Origin: Nitrospina sp.
Lineage (GTDB): Bacteria > Nitrospinota > Nitrospinia > Nitrospinales > Nitrospinaceae
Direction of reading: 5' to 3'
DNA: 39,890 bases
Assembly (NCBI GenBank): GCA_004357435.1
Contig: SMVS01000071.1
Span: 1-39,890 of the forward strand
Made by a program: the position numbers and the translations under genes. Shown one piece after another: positions 29,913-35,210 of the stretch. Within the stretch, counting starts at the first letter, position 1. Every line of letters starts with the position of its first letter. A model generated the notes under the pieces. That model saw only the letters and a list, made by a program, of their open reading frames with translations. It was not told the DNA's origin and did no database searches.

Positions 29913-30043
29913 GGATTATGGGGACCCGGTCTAAGTAAGGGGCGAACGTCACCGCTGGTATCAATGAATTTAAACCTTCGCGTTACAACCATGTTCTATT
30001 TTTACAAAGTCCGAGGTATTGTTCCAGTGGTTTTTCCCCAGCG

Positions 30044-30170
30044 TGCCACTGGCCGGGCGTGGCCCGGAGCAAATAGGTCGAACTCAGATTTGTGCTCAAT
30101 GATTATGAGGCATGGTTTCAGAGTTTGGCCCTCTGCCTCCCCTGCAAGGGGTCGGGCAAGGCCCGGAGCT
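30044..30170 (+). repeat. intergenic repeat, copy A (inverted relative to 35102-35210)
   Basis: CCGGGC-gtg-GCCCGGAGCAAATaGG..CGAACTC ... AGGCAT ... TGCCTCCCCTGCAAGGGG; hairpins 30053-30067 and 30153-30165. Confidence 0.7.
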
Positions 30171-30320
30171 GAATGGGTTACACGGCACTTGCGTGCAACA
30201 ATGATTTAACATAATCCCAAGGTGTTGCTGGGCCTAAATAATTCCCCCTTTTTGAAGAGACCTTTGCATAGCCTGAAAATTATGGATCGGTGGGTCGCTT
30301 CGATGGGAAACCGATGAGCT

Positions 30321-30339
30321 CCCCCTTCTCCGAAGGGGG
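30321..30339. repeat. palindromic repeat CCCCCTTC-tcc-GAAGGGGG
   Basis: 8-bp perfect stem followed by CTGGGGGG; same motif inverted at 34968-34985. Confidence 0.7.
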
Positions 30340-30474
30340 CTGGGGGGCTTTCTCCTTGGAGTGTTTATGGATTGTTCATCTTATGCAAAGCTTTCGTTGG
30401 CAGTACCCAAAGTCTTCGGTAGACTTTTCCCGCGCGTCCATGGGCCTGTCGGCAGGAACTACTTCCAGCGGATC

Positions 30475-34884: not shown

Positions 34885-34889
34885 ACTCA

Positions 34890-34905
34890 GCGGTGAACCG
34901 GGTCA
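34890..34905 (+). repeat. 16-bp direct repeat GCGGTGAACCGGGTCA, copy 1
   Basis: Identical to 35076-35091. Confidence 0.75.
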
Positions 34906-34967
34906 CCCTTCGACCGGCTCAGGATGACAGGAGACGTCACCCGTGTTTATCTGTGAAATCCCCCCTG

Positions 34968-34985
34968 CCCCCTTCAAGAAGGGGG
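34968..34985. repeat. palindromic repeat CCCCCTTC-aa-GAAGGGGG
   Basis: Inverted counterpart of 30321-30339, with flanking CCCCCCTG corresponding to CTGGGGGG. Confidence 0.7.
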
Positions 34986-35075
34986 AGCCATTGTTTTCTC
35001 CCAGTGAATTCTGGCCCAATAAATTGGGCAACTACACAAAACCTGTATTCTTCGCTTGCGCCCTCCGCGTCCTCT

Positions 35076-35091
35076 GCGGTGAACCGGGTCA
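35076..35091 (+). repeat. 16-bp direct repeat GCGGTGAACCGGGTCA, copy 2
   Basis: Identical to 34890-34905. Confidence 0.75.
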
Positions 35092-35101
35092 TGCTTCGCC
35101 G

Positions 35102-35210
35102 CCCCTTGCAGGGAGGCAAAGGGTTGAACCTTGGAGTTATGCCTGGAAACTACTGAGTGCCAGCAGGAGTTCGGCCCCATTTGCTCCGGGCTTTGCCCGG
35201 CTGGCCGTGC
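35102..35210 (-). repeat. intergenic repeat, copy B (inverted relative to 30044-30170)
   Basis: Reverse complement reads CCGGGC-aaa-GCCCGGAGCAAATGGGGCCGAACTC...AGGCAT...TGCCTCCCTGCAAGGGG; hairpin 35186-35200. Confidence 0.7.

Follow-up and report, generated by a model that had tools for sequence, protein, structure and literature searches.

Abundant hairpin-ended repeats in a Nitrospina genome resemble REPINs, with no RAYT transposase found

A repeat of about 100 bases with a hairpin at either end occurs in about 150-230 copies in the genome of a Nitrospina sp. (GCA_004357435.1), and the reading that we consider probable is that it forms a family of miniature, non-autonomous mobile repeats of the REPIN/BIME-like kind. 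Each unit has the form hairpin-body-hairpin, with inverted ends, a length of ~100 nt and precise boundaries.

Results

Two copies of the element lie in separate intergenic gaps of the 39,890-nt stretch that we analysed (contig SMVS01000071.1, positions 1 to 39,890; hereafter the window). Local alignment of the two intergenic stretches runs end to end with a score of 84, against a best of 34 among 1000 shuffles, and copies A and B are 70% identical across ~100 nt, in agreement with a first-pass annotation of this DNA, which had also placed the conserved pieces correctly and described both 5' hairpins as perfect (CCGGGC-GTG-GCCCGG and CCGGGC-AAA-GCCCGG). Both copies share one plan, in which a 5' hairpin with a 6-bp stem and a 3-nt loop is followed by a tail (AGCAAAT), a 67-nt body and a 3' hairpin of the CCCCT-GCA-AGGGG type (Table 1). 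What had been taken for a third half-copy at 30153-30178 proves to be a full-length, diverged tandem copy (30152 to ~30236; 33 bits, E 6e-9) that directly abuts copy A, with 0 nt between them, and has lost its 3' hairpin. The same two gaps hold a second inverted repeat pair of the GCTCCCCCTTCTCCGAAGGGGGCTGGGGG type (window 30318-30346 and 34960-34988), and similar sequences adjoin elements at sister-genus loci such as L036. A 27-nt direct repeat, CTC(A/T)GCGGTGAACCGGGTCA, is present at window 34886-34912 and 35072-35098 as part of a CCTCCGCGTCCTCTGCGGTGAA-like repeat.

Table 1. Element copies in the window and their parts
Feature	Position	Strand	Score or remark
Copy A, full length (5' hairpin and tail, palindromic body, 3' hairpin)	30053..30151	+	CM 83.8 bits; nhmmer 80.9 bits
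Copy A 5' triloop hairpin CCGGGC-GTG-GCCCGG, then tail AGCAAAT	30053..30067	+	stem covaries across copies
Copy A body, 67 nt, imperfect palindrome	30071..30137	+	body HMM 51.6 bits
Copy A 3' hairpin CCCCT-GCA-AGGGG	30139..30151	+	
Third copy, tandem, diverged, 3' end degenerate	30152 to ~30236	+	nhmmer 33.1 bits, E 6e-9; body HMM 17.0 bits
Putative degenerate extra hairpin module (CCCCAGCGTGCCACTGG), immediately upstream of copy A	30036..30052	+	from reading of the sequence
Copy B, full length, inverted relative to copy A	35103..35200	-	CM 70.8 bits; nhmmer 62.9 bits
Copy B 5' hairpin CCGGGC-AAA-GCCCGG	35186..35200	-	
Copy B 3' hairpin (CCCTGCAAGGG)	35103..35114	-	

The first-pass annotation had allowed that these two copies might be the only ones and might lack structural covariation, and had proposed a covariance-model search; that search, with a model built from 36 copies, instead found at least 150 copies in the draft genome (1.76 Mb, 72% complete), with covariation in the 5' stem. 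BLAST of the region against the same genome hit 48 places, and a census with a degenerate hairpin pattern gave 171 matches against 6 in a backward control. If the elements counted across 258 kb of fetched stretches are scaled by this census, the estimated total is ~225 copies, a rough figure since those stretches had been chosen for holding copies. Several contigs end in or beside an element (for example C165:10913-11010 of the same genome), so that the repeats may break genome assembly; 11 of 74 sampled copies have no predicted gene on one side.

Relatives carry the architecture as well. A flanking protein is 79-80% identical to its counterparts in the nearest named relatives, which are Nitrospinaceae and Nitrospinota MAGs, and both the sister genus and other families of the order yield matches to the model with the same arrangement of parts (hairpin, a foot such as GGCAA or GGTAA, body, TTGCC, hairpin). 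Bodies are unalike between genera despite this common hairpin architecture. Counts of the hairpin pattern range from 0 to 311 per genome across the order, and from 0 to 120 within a single genus (g4), a distribution that points to lineage-specific expansion. Our search found no specific literature reports on repeats in Nitrospinota. A recurrent hairpin-like string, CCACTAGGCGTGGGGCCA, flanks several of the g4 elements (L142-L170 flanks).

The folding energy of individual copies is unremarkable (z -0.2 to -1.3), and the evidence for structure therefore comes from comparison between copies. On either strand, the consensus folds into three hairpins, a long stem set between two terminal ones, with a consensus z of -4.2. 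Among the copies of alignment A2, which had been preselected for good hairpins, the 5' stem is paired in 100%, and 5 of its 6 pairs have changed on both sides. Among unselected copies, a good 5' hairpin is present in 53 of 74 and 57 of 71, compared with 6 of 74 and 4 of 71 in shuffled flanks. The 5' end alone has at least eight different stem sequences (CCGGGC, CCGGCG, CCAGCC, CCAGCG, CCAGGT, CCAGGC, CCAAGT, GCAGGG and others), some are found at both ends of the element, and several hairpin types are interchangeable. The bodies are on average 74% identical to their consensus, which corresponds to ~26% decay, and copies compared with one another show no covariation in the body palindrome, paired cells amounting to 66.7% in both the real alignment and its shuffles; we accordingly reject the body as a maintained RNA stem, palindromic though its consensus is. 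Because the stems stay paired while the bodies have drifted without palindrome covariation, the hairpins are kept or corrected while the body decays. The earlier suggestion that the repeat is under selection as a structured element thus applies at most to the terminal hairpins, and not to the body palindrome. Boxes resembling integron attC sites were also considered within the body; their motif sits in the apical loop and not at the ends, and we judge it a chance occurrence.

Element copies are intergenic and occur in both orientations. The strand bias relative to gene ends that had been raised as a possibility is absent among the sampled copies: 17 are same-strand and 15 opposite-strand, and convergent, divergent and codirectional gaps hold 14, 9 and 32 copies, similar to background gap lengths. 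Gene calls here came from a simple codon-usage script, and eight apparent overlaps with genes may reflect wrong starts. A structured non-coding RNA or an mRNA-end element (a terminator, stabiliser or attenuator) held by selection on RNA structure would account for the covarying 5' stem and the three-hairpin consensus fold, which forms on either strand. Several results speak against it: the body lacks covariation, strand and gene-end bias are absent, an Rfam search found no match above the gathering score, and copy number swings from 0 to 120 between congeners. We regard this explanation as very unlikely.

Across the phylum, the genes around the window keep their order, which allows the gaps themselves to be compared. 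The ABC-TesA gap that holds copy A measures ~544 nt here and mostly 26-69 nt (~60) in those relatives whose alignment extends to the start of the gene; for copy B, the gap measures ~334 nt here and 37-48 nt (~40) in Nitrospinaceae. As relatives with the same gene order have short gaps, the comparison shows insertion of material in both window gaps; the extra DNA includes other repeats and so does not correspond to exactly one element. In the sister genus, the copy-B gap holds 1.7-4.7 kb of other sequence, which lies between the CDP-alcohol phosphatidyltransferase and Lon-N genes (L041-L043, L045-L048). Past movement of the elements is well supported. The sample contains no near-identical dispersed copies, the best non-tandem pair being 84% identical, and current activity is therefore not supported. 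Copies show no target-site duplication (p 0.38); isolated ones seem often to have AA at their left flank and T or C at their right.

Insertions visible by synteny, high copy number and a consensus that is one long inverted repeat (fold z -4.2) are also what a classical MITE would leave, that is, a DDE transposon derivative shortened by deletion and moved via its terminal inverted repeats (GGAG(G)CAAATGG...CCATTTGCCTCC). Like bacterial MITEs, the element is small, non-coding, multi-copy and built as an inverted repeat. The terminal repeats of DDE transposons are conserved in sequence; here, by contrast, the terminal hairpin stems vary freely and keep only their shape, relatives retain hairpins and foot and not the body, target sites are not duplicated, and no autonomous copy was seen within the stretches fetched. 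We therefore hold a MITE origin to be rather unlikely.

Tandem units abut hairpin to hairpin with 0 nt between them, often head to tail, and solo hairpins also occur. Among 74 sampled elements there are 24 adjacent pairs, with a median body identity of 0.67 against 0.65 for all pairs, and only 2 of the 24 are recent duplicates (94-99% identical). Since neighbours are hardly more alike than random pairs, most appear to have inserted separately or to be very old duplicates.

REPINs are held to require RAYT transposases. A search for the Y1 transposase domain (PF01797) found none in the element's own assembly, which is 72% complete, and none in two element-rich relatives that are 94-95% complete (G007 and G027). 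The domain is present in 11 of the 41 genomes searched, the own genome being among the 41, and its presence does not track hairpin counts across genomes. One Y1 gene (331 aa) in a sister-genus genome (G001, L178:1430-2470) lies ~100 nt after an element hairpin. We rejected a RAYT linkage through this gene, because it is bounded by its own unrelated AAGGGGTCAAGTCTC terminal repeats; with its GGGGTCAAG-type terminal repeats it resembles TIRYT genes (PMC3733652) and seems to be a TIRYT unit that inserted next to, or within, an element copy. The terminal repeats of TIRYT-type Y1 transposases (GGGGWSAS; PMC3733652) are unrelated to the element. As other candidate mobilisers, Y2/IS91 (PF04986) and IS110 (PF01548) transposases were each rejected: neither occurs in the own assembly, and neither correlates with hairpin counts.

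That none of these searches found a transposase fits a process that needs none of its own, in which replication slippage and template switching spread the copies, and quasipalindrome correction (templating within the hairpin) instead of selection keeps the stems perfect. Perfect stems beside bodies decayed by ~26%, and abutting tandem copies that include two pairs 94-99% identical, agree with it. It is not easy to explain in this way how copies with exact hairpin-to-hairpin ends reached unlinked sites, or why congeners differ so abruptly, and we think it rather improbable that slippage produced the family. For the REPIN/BIME-like mobile repeats that we favour, the candidate enzyme may have been lost, may be missing from the 72%-complete assembly, or may be of an unrecognised kind.

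We also observed complementarity between hairpin loops and the adjoining foot. The third loop base is complementary to the third base after the hairpin in a fraction of 0.64 of cases in the own genome (0.33 expected) and 0.84 in relatives (0.40 expected); a second set gave 0.70 against 0.42. The excess is confined to that register. Once stem type is controlled, by shuffling tails only within one stem type while the body sets the orientation, a small excess remains (L3:t3, 73 versus 65.9; 23/5000), and the neighbouring position L2:t4 gives no signal. This weak excess indicates that the complementarity is mostly a property of a limited set of hairpin types, and as pairing it is suggestive. A bolder reading, in which pan-Nitrospinota single-strand-DNA hairpin elements are moved by a non-RAYT enzyme and each triloop, complementary to its own foot, forms a matching guide and site, strikes us as unlikely; if true, the guide and site carried by each hairpin would let hairpin types swap freely between copies.

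Discussion

The element shows several hallmarks of REPs and REPINs: short extragenic palindromes in high copy number, inverted doublets with a hairpin-forming spacer, and clusters together with singlet remnants, REP singlets being known from REPIN genomes (PMC3116915). With REPINs and BIMEs (inverted REP doublets; Bertels and Rainey, 2011, PMC3116915) it shares an inverted hairpin pair around a spacer, extragenic location, high copy number, random orientation, tandem clusters, singlet remnants and a predicted clover fold of the single-stranded DNA. It differs from them in that no RAYT was found, copies draw on an exchangeable set of hairpin sequences, most tandem neighbours have diverged and are not nearly identical, and the hairpin end carries neither the GTAG tetranucleotide nor the CGTC of the second superfamily, its feet reading TTGCC, TTTGC, TTGAG, TTACC and similar. 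By analogy, then, the element behaves like a REPIN or BIME (PMC3116915), yet we do not assign it as a member, since the tag was tested and is not there and a RAYT link was not found. The first-pass label of a REP/MITE-like non-coding family was right as to kind (high copy number, extragenic, inverted hairpin ends), while its MITE half is weakened by the lack of target-site duplication and its REP half by the missing GTAG/CGTC tag and RAYT.

Two other systems offer partial parallels. CGTC-tagged REPs (PMC3733652) are likewise abundant small dimer-forming hairpins apparently without a dedicated transposase, but the tag here is not CGTC, stems are 5-6 bp and loops 3-4 nt in place of 8-9 bp and 4-5 nt, and a 2-nt spacer separates the 5' hairpin from a variable foot. 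IS200/IS605 ends, as described in the available portions of two reports (PMC8266576, PMC6006769), carry a guide tetranucleotide at the 5' foot of a hairpin; the hairpin with a short foot motif and the lack of target-site duplication are thus alike, whereas in our element no Y1 enzyme was found, the hairpins are terminal and inverted, and there is a suggestive loop-foot complementarity that we did not find described in those portions. Overall, the element has the look of parasitic mobile DNA of the REP/REPIN type, but the transposase usual for that type was not found.

If so, a trans-acting enzyme would, during replication, cut a unit out as single-stranded DNA and paste it in again. This enzyme would recognise the hairpin and foot by their shape, in the manner of IS200/IS605 and TnpA_REP enzymes, and would tend to insert a unit beside an existing copy, after which the body would decay neutrally.

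An abundant REPIN-like family with no RAYT found in its host or in near-complete relatives provides a natural case for asking what else can move hairpin repeats. The phylum comprises nitrite-oxidising and related bacteria, and its repeats are little annotated. The interchangeable, covarying hairpins form a ready library of candidate recognised shapes, and counts that run from 0 to more than 100 between congeners allow correlations with gene presence to be used to find the enzyme.
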